From positions 100,959 to 164,958 of the forward strand of contig JAAXIF010000065.1 in the NCBI GenBank assembly GCA_012270485.1: DNA of 64,000 bases, written 5' to 3'. The position numbers and the translations under genes are program-made. The stretch comes from Sphingobacteriales bacterium (lineage in GTDB: Bacteria; Bacteroidota; Bacteroidia; Chitinophagales; Chitinophagaceae). Below, piece after piece: positions 10,963-19,591 of this stretch; within the stretch, counting starts at the first letter, position 1, and each line of letters begins with the position of its first letter. The notes under the pieces were generated by a model. The model was not told where the DNA came from and searched no databases. It saw only the letters and a list, made by a program, of their open reading frames with translations.

Positions 10963-12300
10963 TTAATTTTCTAATAACTTTTGATAAGCCTGGCTAATTT
11001 TCTCAAAATGAAAAGAATTAAAGGCTTCCTCCATTATAGAGCGAATTTTCTGGTTGCAAAGGTTTCCGATGCTTCCTTCATGCGTATGATACATGTCTTT
11101 AATATCGGATTGAAAATTACCAGCTTCAATAGCCGCCCCTACTTGTTGATAAGCATCTCTAAATGGAATACCTTTTAATACCAGCTTATTGACTTCTTCC
11201 ACACTAAAAGCATATCGGTATTTTTCATCTGCCATAATATCTTTTTTGATCTCAATAGCAGACAGCATGAGACAAGACATTTGTATACATTGCTTAAGTG
11301 TCTGAAAAGCCGGAAATAAATGCTCCTTCAATAATTGTAAGTCGCGATGATAACCGGAGGGTAAATTAGTGGTCATCATCATGATTTCATTCGGCAATGC
11401 TTTGATCCGATTACAATGTGAGCGAATCAGTTCGAAAACATCCGGATTTTTTTTGTGTGGCATAATGCTAGACCCCGTTGTAAGCTCAGTAGGAAAACTT
11501 ACAAAATCAAAATTTTGATTGAGGTATAAACACATATCCATACTCATCCTGCTTAAGGTATCTGCCAAATTCGCCATTGCCATGGCAGTAGTACGCTCTG
11601 CTTTTCCTCTTCCCATTTGAGCGTATACAACATTATAATTCAAATCGTCAAATCCAAGCAATTGGGTAGTAAGTGTACGATTGATAGGAAAAGAAGATCC
11701 ATATCCTGCTGCTGATCCTAATGGGTTTTTATTGACTACTTTATAAGCTCCTTGCAATAATACGGTATCATCTACCAGACTTTCAGCATAAGCCCCAAAC
11801 CATAGTCCGAAAGAAGAAGGCATAGCCAGTTGTAAATGGGTATAGCCGGGTAACAAATGGTTCTTATATTTTTCACTTTGCTCTTGTAATACAATAAAGA
11901 GTGTTTGCATTTCCTCTACCAATGATTGGATTTCATGACGAAGAAACATTTTGATATCTACCAGCACCTGGTCATTTCTACTTCGAGCACTATGAATTTT
12001 CTTTCCGATGTCACCCAGCTTTTGCGTAAGCAAGAATTCAACCTGTGAATGAATATCTTCTACGGATTCGTGAATGGTGAATTGTGAATCGTTAATTTGT
12101 TTGTAGATACTTCTTAGTTCTTGTACAAGTAAGTCCGCTTCAGATTTTGTAAGTAGCCCTACTTCTGCCAACATCATCACGTGTACAATAGATCCTAATA
12201 CATCAAAAGGTGCAAGCAGTAGATCTATTTCACGATCATTGCCTACAGTAAATCTTTCTACTGCAGATGATACATTGGTATTTTTTTGCCAGAGTTTCAT
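10963..12300 (-). CDS. argH: Argininosuccinate lyase
   Basis: 445 residues. It cleaves argininosuccinate to arginine and fumarate, the last step of arginine synthesis. Fumarase-superfamily signatures are present: HSARSRNDQ at 103-111, a TH pair in GYTHLQ at 152-157, and the catalytic-loop signature GSSIMPHKKNP at 276-286. It is the last gene of an eight-gene arginine operon and overlaps the preceding argE by four bases (ATGA), indicating translational coupling. Confidence 0.96.
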   Translation of the reverse strand: MKLWQKNTNVSSAVERFTVGNDREIDLLLAPFDVLGSIVHVMMLAEVGLLTKSEADLLVQELRSIYKQINDSQFTIHESVEDIHSQVEFLLTQKLGDIGKKIHSARSRNDQVLVDIKMFLRHEIQSLVEEMQTLFIVLQEQSEKYKNHLLPGYTHLQLAMPSSFGLWFGAYAESLVDDTVLLQGAYKVVNKNPLGSAAGYGSSFPINRTLTTQLLGFDDLNYNVVYAQMGRGKAERTTAMAMANLADTLSRMSMDMCLYLNQNFDFVSFPTELTTGSSIMPHKKNPDVFELIRSHCNRIKALPNEIMMMTTNLPSGYHRDLQLLKEHLFPAFQTLKQCIQMSCLMLSAIEIKKDIMADEKYRYAFSVEEVNKLVLKGIPFRDAYQQVGAAIEAGNFQSDIKDMYHTHEGSIGNLCNQKIRSIMEEAFNSFHFEKISQAYQKLLEN

Positions 12301-13382
12301 ACTGTTTGGTTTTGCATGATTTGATCCAATAGTGCGATGTATAATTCAATCCCCTCTTTTATTTCATTCAGATAAATAAACTCATCTGCTGAGTGACTCC
12401 TTGCAGAATCACCCGGACCCATTTTCAAAGTTAGAAATGGCATTAATGCTTTATCAGATGTGGTAGGAGAGCCATAGGTTTTTCTTCCAATCCTAGTCCC
12501 TGCTACTACCAAGGGATGATTTTCAGGTATTGCAGTTGATTTTATTCTTACACTTCTCGGCACTGCTATTGAAGAAACATGTTGCTGAATGGTTGCTAGG
12601 ATCTCTTCGAAAGAATACAATTCATTAACCCGTATATCTACTACAAATTTACATTGATCAGGTACCACATTATGTGCCTTATTTGCTGTTTCGATCACTG
12701 TTACTGACATTTTCACAGGGCCGAGTAAACCAGAAACACGCTCAAACTGATACTGACTAAACCATTCAATATCTTTCAATGCTTTGTACAATGCATTCTC
12801 ACCCTCACTTCTGGCTGCATGTCCGGGTTTACCTGTTGCTGTAACATCAAGCACCAACAATCCTCTTTCTGCTATAGCCATTTGCATTTGTGTAGGTTCC
12901 CCTACAATACCATAATTGATATTGGGTAGCTGTGGGAGTAGTGCTTCAATGCCATTCTTACCCGATACTTCTTCTTCTGCTGTTGCCGCAAACAAAATAT
13001 TATAAGGCAACTCTTTTTGTTCGTAGTAATATAAAAAAACAGCTACTAGTGATACCAATGCCCCACCCGCATCATTACTACCCAATCCAAACAGCTTACC
13101 CTCTTTTTCAATAGGCATAAATGGATCTATGGTATACGCCGGATTAGGCTTTACGGTATCATGATGTGAATTCAATAATAATGTAGGCTTTACCGGATCG
13201 AAATTATGATTGGTTACCCAAACATTATTTAGGTATCGATGAACCGGAATTTGCTTTTGCTGAAAAAATTGTTCAATAAGTTGAGCAGTTGTTTGCTCTT
13301 CTCTGCTATAAGAAGGAGTACCAATCAATGCTTTGAGTAGCTGTATACTATCCTGAAATAATATGTTGATATCCGGCTTCAT
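12297..13382 (-). CDS. argE: M20-family acylornithine/acylcitrulline deacylase (ArgE role)
   Basis: 361 residues of the M20 metallopeptidase family. Metal-binding and catalytic residues are visible: SHHDTVKP with His74 and Asp76-type residues, bridging Asp104 in GSNDAGG, the catalytic Glu cluster AEEE at 135-138, and GEPT at 161-164. In this operon it removes the N-acyl group from the ornithine or citrulline intermediate. Because the transcarbamylase is the ArgF' type, the natural substrate is more likely N-acyl-citrulline than N-acetylornithine, and the acyl group may be succinyl. It overlaps argH by four bases and is one base from argB. Confidence 0.88.
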   Translation of the reverse strand: MKPDINILFQDSIQLLKALIGTPSYSREEQTTAQLIEQFFQQKQIPVHRYLNNVWVTNHNFDPVKPTLLLNSHHDTVKPNPAYTIDPFMPIEKEGKLFGLGSNDAGGALVSLVAVFLYYYEQKELPYNILFAATAEEEVSGKNGIEALLPQLPNINYGIVGEPTQMQMAIAERGLLVLDVTATGKPGHAARSEGENALYKALKDIEWFSQYQFERVSGLLGPVKMSVTVIETANKAHNVVPDQCKFVVDIRVNELYSFEEILATIQQHVSSIAVPRSVRIKSTAIPENHPLVVAGTRIGRKTYGSPTTSDKALMPFLTLKMGPGDSARSHSADEFIYLNEIKEGIELYIALLDQIMQNQTV

Positions 13383-13383
13383 G

Positions 13384-14166
13384 CTATAATTGGATGGATG
13401 TTCCTGTTTTACCTGCTAATAATTCCTTCAACTGCTCTGCCTCTCCAATGATCACTTGCTTTACACCTGCTTGAATAGCACTAAAAGCATTGTCCAATTT
13501 GGGAAGCATTCCTGCAAAAATCTTGTTGTCTGATTTTAATTGTTGATATAGCGTGGGGGTTATCACTGGTATAACAGAATTATCGTCATTGACATCCGTT
13601 AATACACCCTTCTTCTCAAAAGAATAAATCAAACTAGTTGTATACAGATGACTCATGCTTTTTGCGATCTCTTGGGCAATGGTATCGGCATTGGTATTTA
13701 ATAGTTGTCCATTCCCATCATCCGTTATAGGTGCCAATACAATCGTCAAATTTTGTCTAATCAGTTGATGTACTTTTATTGAATCTACTGCATCAATATC
13801 TCCGACAAAACCATAATCAATGGTTGCATGTACTCTTTTATGTGCTCGAATCATCCCTGCATCTGCACCCGTAATTCCGATAGCATTGACATCTTTAGAT
13901 TGTAATTTGGCTACGATATTTTTATTGACATATCCGGCATACACCATGGTCACTATTTTCAAAGTCTCCGCATCCGTAATTCTGCGACCATCAATCATTT
14001 GTTGTTGAATACCCATTTGCGCAGCCAGCTTTGTAGCCAATTTCCCTCCTCCATGCACCAATATCTTATGTCCTTGCACAGCAGCAAATTGCTCCAGAAA
14101 ATGCTCTAGCCTTTTTGCATCATCAATGATGTTACCACCAATTTTTATGACATACAATTGTTCCAC
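13384..14166 (-). CDS. argB: N-acylglutamate kinase
   Basis: 260 residues of the amino-acid kinase fold. It phosphorylates N-acylglutamate in the second step of arginine synthesis. Motifs are KIGGNIID at 8-15, the glycine loop HGGGKLA at 39-45, the GITGADAG loop and TDDGNGQLLNTNAD near 147-161, which binds substrate and nucleotide. The length is typical of arginine-insensitive ArgB lacking the N-terminal feedback extension. This would shift control of the pathway to the leader or another step. One base separates it from argE and one from argF'. Confidence 0.94.
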   Translation of the reverse strand: MEQLYVIKIGGNIIDDAKRLEHFLEQFAAVQGHKILVHGGGKLATKLAAQMGIQQQMIDGRRITDAETLKIVTMVYAGYVNKNIVAKLQSKDVNAIGITGADAGMIRAHKRVHATIDYGFVGDIDAVDSIKVHQLIRQNLTIVLAPITDDGNGQLLNTNADTIAQEIAKSMSHLYTTSLIYSFEKKGVLTDVNDDNSVIPVITPTLYQQLKSDNKIFAGMLPKLDNAFSAIQAGVKQVIIGEAEQLKELLAGKTGTSIQL

Positions 14167-14167
14167 C

Positions 14168-15136
14168 TTACGATTGTTGATGTGTTAGTATGGTTTGTAA
14201 AACAGCCTGTGCTGCCCAAACACGATTTCCGGCTTGCTTGGTTACCAAACTATGTGAGCTATCTAATATCTCATCACTAAGTTCTACATTTCTTCTTACC
14301 GGCAAACAGTGCATCACTTTTGCAGCATTTGTATACTTTAGTTTTTCCTCTGTTAACATCCATGCGGGATCGTTTTCATATACTTTACCATAATCGGTAT
14401 ATGTGCTCCAGTTTTTAACATAAACAAAATCAGCGTCTGCTAAAGCGGCATTTTGATCGTGTGTAATCACTGCTCCTTTTGTAAACGCAGTTGATAATTC
14501 ATACTCCTGTGGATGTGTGATGACAAAATCAGCTTCACCCCATGCATTCACCCACTGCGCAAAGCTATTCGCTACACATTGGGGAAGTGGTTTGATATGT
14601 GGTGCCCAGGTCAGTACAATTTTAGGGCGGTGATTTATTTGCTTATCCTGTAACTCTTCCGCAATGGTCATCAGATCCGTCAATGATTGTAAAGGATGCA
14701 GTGTGGCGCTTTCCAGGCTCACCACCGGAACACCCGCATACTTAATAAATTGATGAATGAACATTTCACTATAATCATCTTCCCTATTTTTCAATGAGGG
14801 GAAAGTTCTGATACAAAGAATATCAAAATATTGTCCAAGAACGGGTGCTGCATCTTTCACATGTTCTACGTTATTACCACTCATGATTGCCCCTTCTTCA
14901 AACTCTAATGCCCACCCTTCTTTATCAATATTGAAAACAATGGCTTCCATACCCAGGTTACGGGCTGCAACTTGTGTACTTAACCTTGTTCTAAGACTTG
15001 GATTCAAAAAAAGTAATCCTATACGCTTACCGATTCCAAGACCTTGATATTGGAATGGATTGGCTTTGCATGCCATTGCCTTTGCAATGAGTGCATTGAT
15101 ATCCGGTACATCATTTACAGAAATGAATTGTTTCAT
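14168..15136 (-). CDS. argF': N-acyl-L-ornithine carbamoyltransferase (ArgF' type)
   Basis: 322 residues of the transcarbamylase family, using carbamoyl phosphate and an N-acylated ornithine. The carbamoyl-phosphate loop is LNPSLRTRLS at 44-53, in place of the STRTR of ordinary OTCases. HPLQSLTDL and HCLPVRR are the other signatures. The segment NNVEH at 88-92 puts a valine at position 90. By my recollection of the Xanthomonas and Bacteroides fragilis enzymes, this aligned position is Glu in acetylornithine enzymes and Pro in succinylornithine enzymes. A small residue here argues for N-succinylornithine. The gene sits between argD and argB. Confidence 0.92.
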   Translation of the reverse strand: MKQFISVNDVPDINALIAKAMACKANPFQYQGLGIGKRIGLLFLNPSLRTRLSTQVAARNLGMEAIVFNIDKEGWALEFEEGAIMSGNNVEHVKDAAPVLGQYFDILCIRTFPSLKNREDDYSEMFIHQFIKYAGVPVVSLESATLHPLQSLTDLMTIAEELQDKQINHRPKIVLTWAPHIKPLPQCVANSFAQWVNAWGEADFVITHPQEYELSTAFTKGAVITHDQNAALADADFVYVKNWSTYTDYGKVYENDPAWMLTEEKLKYTNAAKVMHCLPVRRNVELSDEILDSSHSLVTKQAGNRVWAAQAVLQTILTHQQS

Positions 15137-15148
15137 GTTTTTCAGTAA

Positions 15149-16315
15149 TTAAGATGATGGATTAGCGGTTTGTATGAATTTGATGGCCTCGCGAAGTCTC
15201 TGAAGAAAATCGTCTACCTGTTCTTTATTTAATGCAAGAGAAGGCAACAATCGTATTACATTAGGCTTGGCCTCTCCGGTAAATGTTTTGTATTCACTCA
15301 GTAATACTTTTTTCAAATCTTTGATCGCATCAGGAACATCAAATCCAATCATCCAACCTCTACCTCGAACATTTTGAATGTCTGGAATCGCTTTCAATTG
15401 TTCGATTATATACGACCCATTCACCATTGCTTTTTTCATCAAATCCTCTTGCTCTATGATTTCCAATACAGCTAAAGCAGCAGCACAAGCAAGATGGTTC
15501 CCTCCGAATGTGGTTCCTAGCATTCCATGTTTAGGCCTGATATGTGGTGCGATCAAAATACCTCCTATTGGAAATCCATTACCCATCCCTTTTGCCATAG
15601 AATATATATCTGCGTCTACTCCAGCATGATCATGTGCAAAGAATCTTCCTGTTCGTCCATAACCACATTGTACACTATCAGCAATAAATACCGAACCGTA
15701 CTGATCACATAATTGTCGGATAGCTTGTAGAAAATCATCGGAGGCTATATTAATTCCTCCTACTCCTTGTATGCCTTCTGTAATAACGGCTGCAATCGTT
15801 TCTCCATGCTGTTCAAAATATTCTTGTAGCGATGCAGTATCATTAAACGGCAGAAATACAATATTCTCTGTTTCATTTACAGGAGCTACAATTGCGGGAT
15901 TATCCGTAGCTGCAACAGCTAAAGAGGTTCTTCCGTGAAATGATTTTTTAAAAGCAATGATTTTTTTCCTGCCGGTATGAAAAGATGCCAGCTTCAATGC
16001 ATTTTCATTGGCTTCTGCACCACTATTACACAAAAAAAGTTCATAGTCTGTTTTACCACTCAGTTTTCCCAACTTCTCTGCCAGTTGCTGTTGCAATGGT
16101 ATGATCACAGAATTAGAATAAAAAGCTATCTGCTTTAACTGATCTTCTATTTTTTTCACCCAATGTGGATGTGTATGTCCAATACTGATCACTGCATGTC
16201 CTCCATACATATCCAAGTACTGATTTCCCTGGTCATCCCACACATAGGAACCCAGTGCTCTGCTAATGGTAATATTATTTAAAGGATATACATCAAAAAG
16301 TTTCATACCGATCAC
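15149..16315 (-). CDS. argD: Acylornithine aminotransferase
   Basis: 388 residues of PLP class III aminotransferase. It converts N-acylglutamate semialdehyde to N-acylornithine. Landmarks are the substrate/PLP loop NSGAEANENA at 97-106, SFHGRT at 125-130, Asp213 in IADSVQCGYGRTG and the PLP lysine 242 in MAKGMGNGFP. The residue after the catalytic Asp is Ser rather than the common Glu (DSVQ in place of DEVQ). The start could also be three codons downstream. It lies in the arginine operon, 12 bases from argF' and 8 from argC. Confidence 0.94.
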   Translation of the reverse strand: MIGMKLFDVYPLNNITISRALGSYVWDDQGNQYLDMYGGHAVISIGHTHPHWVKKIEDQLKQIAFYSNSVIIPLQQQLAEKLGKLSGKTDYELFLCNSGAEANENALKLASFHTGRKKIIAFKKSFHGRTSLAVAATDNPAIVAPVNETENIVFLPFNDTASLQEYFEQHGETIAAVITEGIQGVGGINIASDDFLQAIRQLCDQYGSVFIADSVQCGYGRTGRFFAHDHAGVDADIYSMAKGMGNGFPIGGILIAPHIRPKHGMLGTTFGGNHLACAAALAVLEIIEQEDLMKKAMVNGSYIIEQLKAIPDIQNVRGRGWMIGFDVPDAIKDLKKVLLSEYKTFTGEAKPNVIRLLPSLALNKEQVDDFLQRLREAIKFIQTANPSS

Positions 16316-16323
16316 TTGATTGA

Positions 16324-17325
16324 TTAGAAATAATTGGCTTTTAAATTCAGTCCTGTTTTTTCATCCAGACCCAACATGAGATTCATATTTTGTACTGCCT
16401 GTCCGCTGGCTCCTTTCAATAAATTATCAATCGCACTATGAACTATCAGTTTATTGCCCTGCTTCTCAATATGTAAAAGACATTTGTTGGTATTCACCAC
16501 TTGCTTTAGATCGATCATCGTTTCACTTAAAAAAGTAAAAGATTGTTTCTGATAATATTCGCGATACAGTTCTTTTACTTTTTCTAATGGGAAACTGCAA
16601 TCAATGATTGAGCTGGTATAAATACCTCTTGTAAAATCACCTCGCCAAGGGACAAAATGTATACCCGGACCCTCTCCTAAAGCAGATAAAGGAGAATCTT
16701 TCTGCAACTGATTGATAGATGCCGTGATCTCTTGAATATGCTGATGATTCAATGATTTATACGCTTGGATATTATTGGCTCTCCAACTAAAATGAGAGGT
16801 AGTACTCAGTGATTGACCGGCTCCCGTAGATCCGGTGATACCGGTCGTATGTACATCACTCAATATACCCGCTTTTGCCAAAGGCAATAATGCCAATTGA
16901 ATAGCAGTAGCAAAACAACCGGGGTTAGCAATATTGTGAGCAGTTTTAATTAGTTCTCGATTTAGTTCCGGTAATCCATAAACAAAGTTTCTGTTACCAA
17001 ATATTGATCCGGATGTCAACCTGAAATCCTGTGATAGATCGATGATCTTTACGGCATCAGAGATATGGTTCTGTTCCAAAAACTTTTTCGCGTCACCATG
17101 ACCTACACATAAAAACAGTACATCTACCTCTGTAAACGGCTGATCAGCGAATAATAGTTCTGTTTCTCCGATGAGGTCTTTATGAACTTCATATAAAGGT
17201 TTTCCTGCATTACTGGAACTATGTACACTTAATAAGTCTACTGCCGAATGACGCAGTAACAAACGAATCATTTCTCCACCTGTATATCCCGCACCACCAA
17301 TAATAGCTGCTCTTATTTGACTCAT
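16324..17325 (-). CDS. argC: N-acyl-gamma-glutamyl-phosphate reductase
   Basis: 333 residues. The NADPH-binding motif GGAGYTGGE is at 10-18 and the catalytic cysteine is Cys137 in NPGCFATA. Other family phrases are DLSQDFRL and YGLPELNR. It reduces N-acylglutamyl phosphate to the semialdehyde. It overlaps argG by four bases, so the two are probably translationally coupled. Confidence 0.95.
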   Translation of the reverse strand: MSQIRAAIIGGAGYTGGEMIRLLLRHSAVDLLSVHSSSNAGKPLYEVHKDLIGETELLFADQPFTEVDVLFLCVGHGDAKKFLEQNHISDAVKIIDLSQDFRLTSGSIFGNRNFVYGLPELNRELIKTAHNIANPGCFATAIQLALLPLAKAGILSDVHTTGITGSTGAGQSLSTTSHFSWRANNIQAYKSLNHQHIQEITASINQLQKDSPLSALGEGPGIHFVPWRGDFTRGIYTSSIIDCSFPLEKVKELYREYYQKQSFTFLSETMIDLKQVVNTNKCLLHIEKQGNKLIVHSAIDNLLKGASGQAVQNMNLMLGLDEKTGLNLKANYF

Positions 17326-18545
17326 TTGTTATCAGATTTAATGTTGTGATAAATAGCGGTCTGGTTACCAAAAATTTTGGAAAATCCTCTCACATCATCT
17401 CCTGTCCAGCCACTGTTCATTTCACCATACTTACCAAATTTGCTGCTCATTAAATCAAATGATGATTCAATACCAATAACAGCAAAACGGTAAGGCATGA
17501 GTTGTATAAAAACATCTCCTGTAACATGCTCCTGTGACTGAATCAGAAATGCCTCAATATCTCTCATCACAGGATCCATAATCTGCCCTTCATGCAACCA
17601 ATTGCCATAAAATTGAGCGAGTTGGTCTTTCCAATTCAATTGCCATTTGGTCAATACATGTTTTTCCAATGCATGATGCGCTTTCAGAATAACCATGGGT
17701 GCTGCTGCCTCAAAGCCTACACGTCCTTTAATACCGATAATCGTATCCCCCACATGAATATCGCGCCCAATACCAAATGGACCTGCAATGGACTGCAGGT
17801 ATTGTATCGCATCGGTTGGATGCGCAAATTGTTGATCATTGATGGTTTTCAGTTCACCTTTCACAAATCCAAGTTTCACTTCTTCAGGTTGTGATTTTGA
17901 AACTTTTGTAGGCCAAGCTTCTTCCGGGAGCATCCCTTTGGAATGCAATGTTTCTTTTCCTCCTACACTGGTTCCCCACAGTCCTTTATTGATAGAATAA
18001 GTGGCTTTTTCAAAATTCATAGCAACACCTTTCGATTGGAGATAAGTGATTTCCTCCTCTCTACTCAGTTTCATATCTCGAATAGGCGTAATAATTTCTG
18101 TATCCGGTATCATGATATGAAAAATCATATCAAATCTTACCTGATCATTACCGGCACCAGTACTGCCATGCACCACTGCTTTGGCATTCAGTTTTTTAGT
18201 GTGTTCAGCTATATGCAAAGCCTGACTCAGCCTCTCTGCACTCACACTCAATGGATAGGTATTGTTTTTCAATACATTTCCATAAATCAAAAAACGAATA
18301 ATACTGTCGTAATAGCTTTTCACTGCATCAACGGTCGTGTGGGTTTTCACCCCTAAATTATATGCATGCGTCTCTACCTGCTGTAATTCTTCCTTTGAAA
18401 AGCCCCCTGTATTCACAATTACGCTATGCACTTCAAAGCCTTTTTCTTCAGTTAAGTATTTGACACAAAAAGAAGTATCGAGTCCGCCACTAAAGCCTAC
18501 TACTACTTTTGTACCTGCCGGAAGATTTGTTGGAAGCTGATTCAT
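17322..18545 (-). CDS. argG: Argininosuccinate synthase
   Basis: 407 residues. The ATP-pyrophosphatase P-loop SGGLDTS is at 19-25. The segments KAVVHGSTGAGNDQVRF and SINKGLWGTSVGG are typical of the citrulline/aspartate binding regions. It condenses citrulline with aspartate using ATP. It is the second gene of the operon, which differs from many bacteria where argG and argH are adjacent: here they are at opposite ends of the cluster. Confidence 0.96.
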   Translation of the reverse strand: MNQLPTNLPAGTKVVVGFSGGLDTSFCVKYLTEEKGFEVHSVIVNTGGFSKEELQQVETHAYNLGVKTHTTVDAVKSYYDSIIRFLIYGNVLKNNTYPLSVSAERLSQALHIAEHTKKLNAKAVVHGSTGAGNDQVRFDMIFHIMIPDTEIITPIRDMKLSREEEITYLQSKGVAMNFEKATYSINKGLWGTSVGGKETLHSKGMLPEEAWPTKVSKSQPEEVKLGFVKGELKTINDQQFAHPTDAIQYLQSIAGPFGIGRDIHVGDTIIGIKGRVGFEAAAPMVILKAHHALEKHVLTKWQLNWKDQLAQFYGNWLHEGQIMDPVMRDIEAFLIQSQEHVTGDVFIQLMPYRFAVIGIESSFDLMSSKFGKYGEMNSGWTGDDVRGFSKIFGNQTAIYHNIKSDNK

Positions 18546-18565: not shown

Positions 18566-19267
18566 TTAAAGATTAAAGAAATGATGAAAGAAAGATTTGG
18601 GTTTTGTTGTTCCACCGTTTTCCTTCTTTCGGAAAACACGCAATAACTTATGTTGCTTCACTTTCATGAAACGCTCATAGAGTTTAGATTTCCTTTTAAA
18701 TTCCGTAGATGTTTCTTCCGGTTCATAATGATCTGTAGGGTCATACAGCATGGCTGTACAAAAACAGTTCTTACGATCCTTACTCATCAATATTTCATAA
18801 TTGATACAACTTTTACAACCGGCCCAAAATTCTTCATCATCGGTTAACTCACTATATGTAACCGGCTCATAACCCAAGTCACTGTTGATCTTCATGACGG
18901 CAAGACCGGTAGTCAAACCAAATATTTTGGAAGTTGGATACTTTTCCCTTGATAAGTTGAAGATGGTTTGTTTGATTAGTTTAGCCACACCGCTTTTCCG
19001 AAAGGGTGGTGAAACAATTAAACCACTATTGGCCACGAATGCATCATGTCCCCATGCTTCTATATAACAAAAGCCTACCCAAGTTCCATCTGGAAGGAGT
19101 GCGATAACGGCTTTACCCTCTTCCATCTTACGAGCCACATATTCGGGACTGCGTTTAGCGATACCGGTACCACGTGCTTTGGCAGATGACTCCATTTCAT
19201 CTGTAATGGTTTGCGCGTAATGCGTGTCGCCACCATTGGCTACACGAACAATGATATTTTGTTCCAA
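18566..19267 (-). CDS. GNAT acyltransferase with four-cysteine insert, first gene of the arginine operon
   Basis: 233 residues from a TTG codon at 19267. No ATG or GTG lies upstream in frame before a stop, and the first internal ATG (residue 25) would cut the fold. The GNAT core runs from about 5 to 145, with the acyl-CoA pyrophosphate loop FRKSGVA near 89-95. A pattern C151-x2-C154 ... C168-x-C170 follows and could bind a metal. Leading an operon that lacks argA and argJ, it is the natural candidate for N-acylglutamate synthase (acetyl- or succinyl-CoA). The C-terminal tail (about 190-233) is basic. The function is inferred from context. Confidence 0.8.
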   Translation of the reverse strand: MEQNIIVRVANGGDTHYAQTITDEMESSAKARGTGIAKRSPEYVARKMEEGKAVIALLPDGTWVGFCYIEAWGHDAFVANSGLIVSPPFRKSGVAKLIKQTIFNLSREKYPTSKIFGLTTGLAVMKINSDLGYEPVTYSELTDDEEFWAGCKSCINYEILMSKDRKNCFCTAMLYDPTDHYEPEETSTEFKRKSKLYERFMKVKQHKLLRVFRKKENGGTTKPKSFFHHFFNL

Positions 19268-19339
19268 CTTATAATGAATTAAATAACGTAAACGGTAAGA
19301 CAGCTCTCTGTCAGATGATTGATTCCGGGGGATTTTTCA

Positions 19340-19379
19340 CTGATAGGGGCAAGTGCCAGTTGCTCGTCCTATCAGCAAC
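19340..19379 (-). promoter_or_regulatory. Competing hairpins in the arginine operon leader
   Basis: On the minus strand, GTTGCT and AGCAAC (19374-19379 and 19359-19364) can form one hairpin. CTGATAGG and CCTATCAG (19368-19375 and 19340-19347) form a second, longer one with an inner GCAA/TTGC pairing. The two share bases and cannot coexist. The 5' arm of the second covers the stop codon of the Arg-rich leader peptide. This is the geometry of an attenuator, although no U-run follows the second hairpin. Confidence 0.55.
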
Positions 19380-19419
19380 CACGTCGAGGTCGCGGCAAGA
19401 AGTTGAAAGCAGCTTCCAT
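19372..19419 (-). CDS. Putative arginine leader peptide, 15 codons
   Basis: An ATG at 19419 opens MEAAFNFLPRPRRGC followed by TGA. Three of the last six codons are arginine (CGA, CGA, CGT, separated by one proline). It sits about 105 bases upstream of the first arginine biosynthetic gene and its stop codon lies inside the hairpin region. Ribosome stalling at the arginine codons under arginine shortage would select between the two hairpins. No Shine-Dalgarno is seen, as for most genes here. Conservation in relatives would be the test. Confidence 0.55.
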   Translation of the reverse strand: MEAAFNFLPRPRRGC

Positions 19420-19511
19420 AGAGAATACCTGAATACGGGTATTCAACAGGAGGAATAAATATTGAGTGAGTATCTGCTTCACTTGTTTGATAATTATTTG
19501 CTTTGGAGCTG

Positions 19512-19545
19512 TAAAAGTATATCAGTTTGTGGGATATCGTTCAAA
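19512..19545 (-). promoter_or_regulatory. Candidate promoter of the arginine operon
   Basis: On the minus strand TTTG (19545-19542), 22 bases, then TACTTTTA (19519-19512). This resembles the Bacteroidota vegetative promoter (TTTG, about 20 bases, TAnnTTTG), with one mismatch in the -7 box. Transcription would start near 19505 and give a leader of about 240 bases. The -33 element lies inside the perfect palindrome 19538-19558 (CGTTCAAAAA, A, TTTTTGAACG), which could be an operator. Confidence 0.5.
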
Positions 19546-19591
19546 AAATTTTTGAACGGCATATTAATTCTATGCTAACAAGTGTAAGCAT

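Follow-up and report, generated by a model that had tools for sequence, protein, structure and literature searches.

The window analysed here, a 64,000-nt stretch of a Chitinophagaceae genome, contains an arginine operon whose first gene is preceded by a leader region. The relevant features, all of them on the minus strand, are listed in the direction of transcription.

19511–19528, minus strand: promoter-like core AAACTGATATACTTTTAC, read in the window and 10 relatives and changed in L039 and L045
19372–19482, minus strand: leader ORF of 36 codons, MKQILTQYLFLLLNTRIQVFSMEAAFNFLPRPRRGC, with a GTG start at 19482 and a UGA stop at 19372
19381–19392, minus strand: regulatory codons CGA-CCT-CGA-CGT, with Arg codons at 19392, 19386, and 19383
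19374–19372, minus strand: stop codon UGA, inside stem P1
19340–19375, minus strand: stem P1, CUGAUAGG (19375–19368) paired with CCUAUCAG (19347–19340), from alignments A1 and A2 and RNA model R1
between P1 and P2, minus strand: 4 × 1 internal loop ACGA/C
19363–19349, minus strand: stem P2, GCAA (19363–19360) paired with UUGC (19352–19349), with the 7-nt loop CUGGCAC (19359–19353)
19299–19312, minus strand: small hairpin GACAG-AGAG-CUGUC, at the place where other members of the clade have a third hairpin, P3
18566–19267, minus strand: gene for a GNAT-fold acyltransferase, the first gene of the operon, with a TTG start at 19267
10963–18545, minus strand: argG, argC, argD, acetyl- or succinylornithine carbamoyltransferase, argB, M20 deacylase, and argH

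The product of the first gene has no match among the Pfam or NCBIfam models, and its predicted structure (mean pLDDT 81.9) matches GNAT acetyltransferases, including N-acetylglutamate synthases. We regard it as a candidate N-acyl-glutamate synthase and thus as a candidate for the enzyme of this kind that is missing from the known arginine synthesis of the phylum. In 74 out of 80 relatives, argG follows the gene on the same strand; in the remaining six, the contig ends too early to tell. Cys residues are invariant in the C-terminal part of the protein (C..C and C.C).

The leader was compared at 203 loci, 123 of them from family-labelled genomes and 80 being the best matches from a contig collection, whose titles often but not always name Chitinophagaceae genera. 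All loci come from genomes with the GNAT gene, which is present in 155 out of 195 searched, and a subset of those genomes was used; seven loci with an unreadable gene start (L141, L180, L182, L186, L199, L207, L214) were left out. The upstream sequences are distinct in 196 out of 203 loci, hence the loci are not independent. In this set of the family and its closest matches, a leader ORF is found upstream of the GNAT gene in 195 out of 203 loci and falls into three sequence classes. Class 1, which includes the window, comprises 124 loci, most commonly ending in RRGC (50 loci) and RRGF (26 loci); class 2 comprises 51 loci, with RRPRI in 43 and ends of a similar kind in the other eight; class 3 comprises 20 loci, with RVRR in nine and other residues followed by RR in the remainder. 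One locus, L017, was moved from class 1 to class 2. L035 (with only 64 nt upstream), L178, L183, L204, L213, L217, L218, and L220 were not classified, although some of them, L218 and L220 for instance, end in an Arg-rich stretch nonetheless.

The first-pass annotation of this region proposed a 15-codon ORF, MEAAFNFLPRPRRGC, with three Arg codons among its last six and a distance of approximately 105 nt to the first gene. This frame does read at positions 19419–19372 of the minus strand, and both its Arg codons and its distance to the TTG codon at 19267 are as described, but it is only the 3′ part of the conserved 36-codon ORF. In 119 out of 124 class-1 loci, a GTG, TTG, or ATG start codon lies 28–41 codons before the stop, being followed by a Lys or Asn codon in 88 of these 119, and the internal ATG, the start of the 15-codon reading, is replaced by ATA in L033, a locus of Sediminibacterium goheungense DSM 28323. 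At least three Arg codons among the last eight are present in 84 out of 119 non-redundant family loci, compared with a mean of 1.2 in shuffled sequences (maximum 3 in 20 rounds); on the reverse strand, the same rule is satisfied by 11 out of 119. The core idea of the annotation, a leader peptide with Arg codons ahead of the arginine operon, is thus strongly supported by family-wide conservation, and it also fits the absence of ArgR. The leader is real, conserved, and functional-looking, the original proposal being right in kind and partly wrong on the anatomy. Two other readings of the region were considered and rejected: a frameshift fusion of the leader with the gene, on inspection, since the distance from the leader stop to the gene varies by non-multiples of three; and a second ORF beginning at the invariant GUG that follows P1, because this frame stays open beyond the start of the gene in 23 out of 66 loci, compared with 29 out of 66 for frame 2.

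The Arg codons near the stop are retained throughout the classes. CGA with a further Arg codon immediately after it occurs within the last eight codons in 115 out of 124 loci of class 1, all 51 loci of class 2, and 19 out of 20 loci of class 3, that is, the tandem is present near the stop in 185 out of 195 classified leaders, despite their different C-termini. The last eight codons of the class-1 leaders contain three Arg codons in 81 loci, two in 32, four in eight, and one in three (L129, L163, L184), and the other two reading frames mostly yield zero to one. CGA accounts for 57% of the leader Arg codons, compared with 12% in eleven genes of the window. The tRNA-Arg(ACG), which decodes CGU, CGC, and CGA, is present in the genome (the tRNA search gave 41 matches, 11 of them without a locus of their own).

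The promoter that the annotation placed just upstream is supported by a promoter-like core common to the window and its relatives, most of which have AAACTGTTATACTTTTAC, and transcription would be expected to start near 19504. Between the promoter, recognized by its sequence only, and the first gene, there is a short ORF carrying codons for the amino acid that the operon makes. A perfect 21-nt palindrome is indeed present at 19538–19558, upstream of the promoter, but it is not conserved: among 40 loci compared, only the two nearest relatives retain it (L031, and L032 in an imperfect form), and it is gone in L033 and L034. Thus, the palindrome was rejected as a conserved operator.

The 3′ end of the leader ORF takes part in a conserved RNA fold. 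The class-1 consensus of P1 is CUGAYAGG/CCURUCAG, and its 5′ strand is formed by the last codon and the stop codon; P1 encloses the 4 × 1 internal loop and P2. The claim that the stop codon lies inside a hairpin holds, and this hairpin is conserved. P1 is paired in all 46 distinct sequences and varies at only two of its eight pairs; the other six are invariant and hence neither support nor refute it. All four pairs of P2 vary, with both-sided changes at three of them (14 cells), and the innermost pair is unpaired in 20 out of 46 distinct sequences. The last codon of the leader ends in C, forming the first pair of P1, in 87 out of 87 loci assigned to class 1 at that stage, L017 included; the later class-1 set was selected by a P1 pattern fixing CUGA, so that this C is there by construction, and the count over 87 loci is free of the selection. 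Alignment A1 contains 62 out of 63 references (L017 being excluded), and A2, 51 of those 62. The 3′ flank UGRAAA is conserved. The model R1 of P1/P2 finds a single copy in 35 out of 117 family genomes, each time immediately ahead of the GNAT gene, and in a phylum sample of 296 genomes it yields four marginal hits outside the family (E from 0.001 to 0.009). Since P1/P2 is found in only these 35 family genomes and is absent from classes 2 and 3, this readout is not universal. Class-3 leaders with RVRR ends, e.g., L198 and L206, have hairpins of their own, CAUAGU...ACUAUG after GCGACGUUGAUAC.

The annotation described two mutually exclusive hairpins, and the leaders of the relatives bear out a part of it: the short ORF, its Arg codons, and the stop-codon hairpin are kept, but the second, competing hairpin lacks covariation. 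This competitor, GUUGC/GCAAC, is paired at 72.2% compared with 71.7% in shuffled columns, and a hairpin within the Arg codons (CCGCG/CGUGG) at 70.6% compared with 71.9%; both were rejected. No conserved mutually exclusive structures and no antiterminator signal were found in the pairing scans of the leader.

Longer-range pairing was analysed by a matched-partner test, in which the pairing of each 8-nt leader segment with the downstream RNA of the same locus was compared with its pairing with the downstream RNA of the others. In 55 non-redundant class-1 loci and 45 segments, a specific signal is confined to the three segments over the P2 loop (t = −3.5, −4.4, −2.9), with t between −0.8 and 1.9 for every other segment; a shuffle-based forerunner of the test gave a weaker signal in the same segments. 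The partner of the loop sits in a small hairpin, GGAY-UGGUN-RUCC, in 31 aligned loci. Alignment A3 comprises 31 out of 34 loci (L163, L181, and L184 were dropped) selected with UGGU required in the partner loop, and its overall pairing of 87% is inflated for this reason. A clear contact of six pairs, UAACCA with UGGUUA, is seen, for instance, in Paracnuella aquatica N24 (L103). Position 19/93 and the matched-partner test are free of this choice: at this position, CG, UA, AU, GU, and GC pairs are observed, with 13 both-sided changes, a number reached in none of 500 shuffles, and 10 out of 31 loci are unpaired. The third hairpin, P3, is moderately supported (82.3% paired, compared with 79.8% in shuffles).

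For the sequence of the window itself, the loop contact is not supported, 69% of shuffles being as good. By group, it is weakly positive in window-like loci (t = −2.7, n = 15), positive in the UGGU clade (t = −3.4, n = 30), and null in the Ferruginibacter-like group (t = −0.2, n = 6). The contact is therefore a property of the clade that is not demonstrated for the window, and a single sequence could not reveal it. Pairing of the class-1 leader with the initiation region of the gene was not found (the strongest of 52 segments having t = −2.3, n = 27), nor was long-range pairing in classes 2 and 3.

Repression by ArgR would also regulate this operon by arginine, but ArgR (PF01316) was found neither in the genome of the window nor in any of 117 family genomes. 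The same model was positive in nine out of 14 control genomes, including a Bacteroides, and in seven out of 119 genomes of a class-wide sample. Three of these seven genomes, from other families (L318, L319, L320), also have the GNAT gene; in each of them, argR is its immediate upstream neighbour and takes the position of the leader, and no Arg-rich leader ORF was seen before the GNAT gene in any of the three (one Arg-rich frame in L320 lies inside argR). In the bacteria of the window's family, where ArgR was not found, arginine is probably sensed by the leader described here.

Taking the ORF, its Arg codons, P1/P2, the loop contact of the clade, the missing terminator described below, and the lack of ArgR as observed, we infer the stalling, the direction of the switch, and its output. 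We consider it rather likely that this is a regulatory leader of the arginine operon, in which the position of the ribosome reports the charging of tRNA-Arg and is read by a fold gated at the stop codon. The ribosome would start on the 36-codon ORF approximately 20 nt from the predicted 5′ end of the RNA. If charged tRNA-Arg(ICG) is scarce, it would stall at the tandem CGA-CGU, some 12 nt before the stop; the usual ribosome footprint places the front of a ribosome stalled there at the stop codon, so that P1/P2, in many relatives together with the loop contact, could fold and the operon would be on. If arginine is plentiful, the ribosome would reach UGA, and its footprint would lie over the 5′ strand of P1 and a part of P2 as the next RNA emerges; because UGA is a part of P1, both stems would be opened and the operon would be off. 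The assignment of the folded state to the on position is borrowed from the speF leader of Salmonella and would apply here by analogy. Instead of an intrinsic terminator, either premature termination by Rho or inefficient initiation at the GNAT start probably accounts for the off state.

Selection on the peptide bears on what the stalled ribosome would sense. In the window's own group, with PRPRRGC and PRPRRGF ends, pN/pS rises from 0.12 over the last eight codons through 0.39 in the middle to 0.79 in the N-terminal part, a gradient that would be expected if the Arg block is what mainly counts. For the THTKQ group of class 1, the respective values are 0.48, 0.17, and 0.08, so that here conservation extends to the peptide itself. 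This strong conservation of the N-terminal part is not accounted for by pure codon sensing and keeps alive a rival explanation: the nascent Arg-rich chain, perhaps together with free arginine, would arrest the ribosome, and the RNA would read the stall. Class 2, with values of 0.24, 0.58, and 0.47 and an HPSLMG-like stretch, is partly in line with such an arrest peptide; class 3 has 0.40, 0.51, and 1.15. Nevertheless, the Arg codons persist across classes with different C-termini, although this end of the chain would be the one close to the catalytic centre, and the N-terminal part is nearly free in the group of the window, so we think it unlikely that arrest by the peptide is the main principle. 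In the THTKQ group, e.g., at L019, L109, L147, L148, and L165, the N-terminal part THTKQFAFHAP...GVYAVGFDVF is strongly kept at the protein level, and class-2 peptides have the HPSLMG-like stretch in the context TH...HPSLMG.

Attenuators of the trp and his type have a short ORF with end-product codons between the promoter and the operon, and the arg leader shares this placement. The own genome provides a reference: downstream of its his leader (L311, contig C42), MKQFAHIHHHHYLPIG, there is a 12-bp hairpin and a U-run, which makes it a textbook His attenuator, and His-rich leader ORFs are found in 12 out of 14 his loci (11 out of 13 among those of the relatives). In place of the strong intrinsic terminator at the end of the his leader, class-1 arg leaders carry the conserved stop-codon stem. 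The annotation had pointed out that no U-run follows the stop-codon hairpin and had doubted classical termination, rightly so in both respects: good intrinsic terminators are absent from the non-redundant class-1 leaders and present in the his leaders. According to the stricter rule for a hairpin with a U-tract, none of 56 class-1 leaders reach −8 kcal/mol and one of 56 reaches −5, not above shuffles, compared with −8 in seven out of seven non-redundant his leaders (median −16.5; drawn from 12 loci, those of close relatives together with that of the own genome). Under the looser rule, one of 109 class-1 rows (L034) reaches −8, and six reach −5: L034 (−8.2), L039 (−7.5), L067 (−6.5), L175 (−5.8), L187 (−5.2), and L038 (−5.1).

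Competition of an antiterminator with an intrinsic terminator, as in the trp and his leaders, would explain the Arg codons before the leader stop, and it might draw on these six rows, on the weak hairpins ahead of a T-rich run in several Sediminibacterium-like leaders, and on the hairpins with U-tracts that reach −8 kcal/mol in 10 out of 45 class-2 leaders (2% of shuffles) and two out of 19 class-3 leaders (shuffles overall, 2–5%). A conserved class-1 terminator is, however, rejected under both rules, and the proposed competing hairpin does not covary. The class of the window hence does not fit the textbook terminator scheme, and we find classical attenuation improbable as the explanation of this leader.

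An arginine riboswitch, i.e., a metabolite aptamer whose P1 overlaps the stop codon by coincidence, with the ORF being secondary, could claim the conserved internal loop, the 3′ flank UGRAAA, and a long-range loop contact like those of known riboswitches. Yet the internal loop differs in L087, L105, L163, L181, and L184, classes 2 and 3 have the ORF but not the element, and no Rfam family matches at the gathering score in the window or in 20 loci (sub-threshold hits being at the chance level), leaving this explanation with a very small probability. An accidental Arg-rich frame in an AT-rich leader, for which the 11 out of 119 reverse strands passing the rule might be cited (perhaps since CGACG-type words are partly self-complementary), is refuted by the conservation, namely the 84 out of 119 loci against the shuffled mean of 1.2 and the constraint at the codon level, and is hardly worth considering.

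Returning to the ribosome-gated leader, a bolder version of it may be put forward, tentatively, as a possibility that we would not yet favour. The leader might be a new type of ribosome-gated switch, in which the stop codon is a structural part of the fold (P1/P2, in much of the clade with a kissing contact to a third hairpin) and the state is set by the arrival of the terminating ribosome and not by competition between a terminator and an antiterminator; some lineages might be further tuned by a conserved nascent peptide, and such leaders might replace ArgR family-wide.

The closest known system is the leader orf34 of Salmonella speF, where two consecutive Arg codons sense arginine and Rho is involved; a ribosome pausing at these codons allows a hairpin beyond the stop to form, whereas one that arrives at the stop blocks it (PMC6386406). 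In the leader class of the window, Arg codons likewise stand in tandem and the stop codon has a hairpin. It differs in its target, as orf34 controls ornithine decarboxylase, while the leader of the window precedes the GNAT gene and then argG; in its peptide, the HIRR core of orf34 being found in none of the 195 classified leaders; and in its RNA, that of speF being a different one, with no loop contact reported in the available part of the source (PMC6386406). In Staphylococcus aureus, the rbfL leader peptide senses arginine shortage via rare Arg codons; there, the paused ribosome covers the start of the next gene and represses a biofilm regulator, with no conserved RNA fold described in the available part of the source (PMC13009471). 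The carA gene of Pseudomonas aeruginosa is also mentioned as having a leader peptide, similarly placed before an arginine-related gene, but this gene comes with pyrimidine attenuation and the phylum is a different one (PMC4997734). Within the phylum, clues for leader-peptide attenuation upstream of amino-acid operons are given for Flavobacterium psychrophilum; the corresponding section does not name arginine, whose sole mention found in the main text concerns cyanophycin (PMC9723704). In a survey of structured RNAs with uORF motifs, the word Bacteroidetes is absent from the main text (PMC8632094). We found no earlier description of this arg leader or RNA in the open-licence literature, and it may have been reported elsewhere.

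The literature searched also contains no description of how arginine synthesis is controlled in the ArgR-less bacteria of the phylum. For the family, the leader offers an answer that can be tested directly, and leaders with unlike peptides extend it to other families of the class. The covarying contact beside the stop-codon stem suggests that translation termination may be coupled to RNA folding without an intrinsic terminator, and the textbook His attenuator in the same genome allows the two readouts to be compared within one cell.

Beyond the window's family, Arg-rich ORFs of unlike sequence precede the same gene in 23 out of 44 loci, compared with a shuffled mean of 1.05 (these 44 represent other families of the class, except for L244, L246, and L250, which belong to the window's family), and six out of 14 further loci without argR have an Arg-rich ORF by a looser rule. 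A further type of Arg-rich leader is observed in the order-level relatives L229, L233, L234, L241, and L242, where short ORFs end in RRRP before a UAG stop codon.
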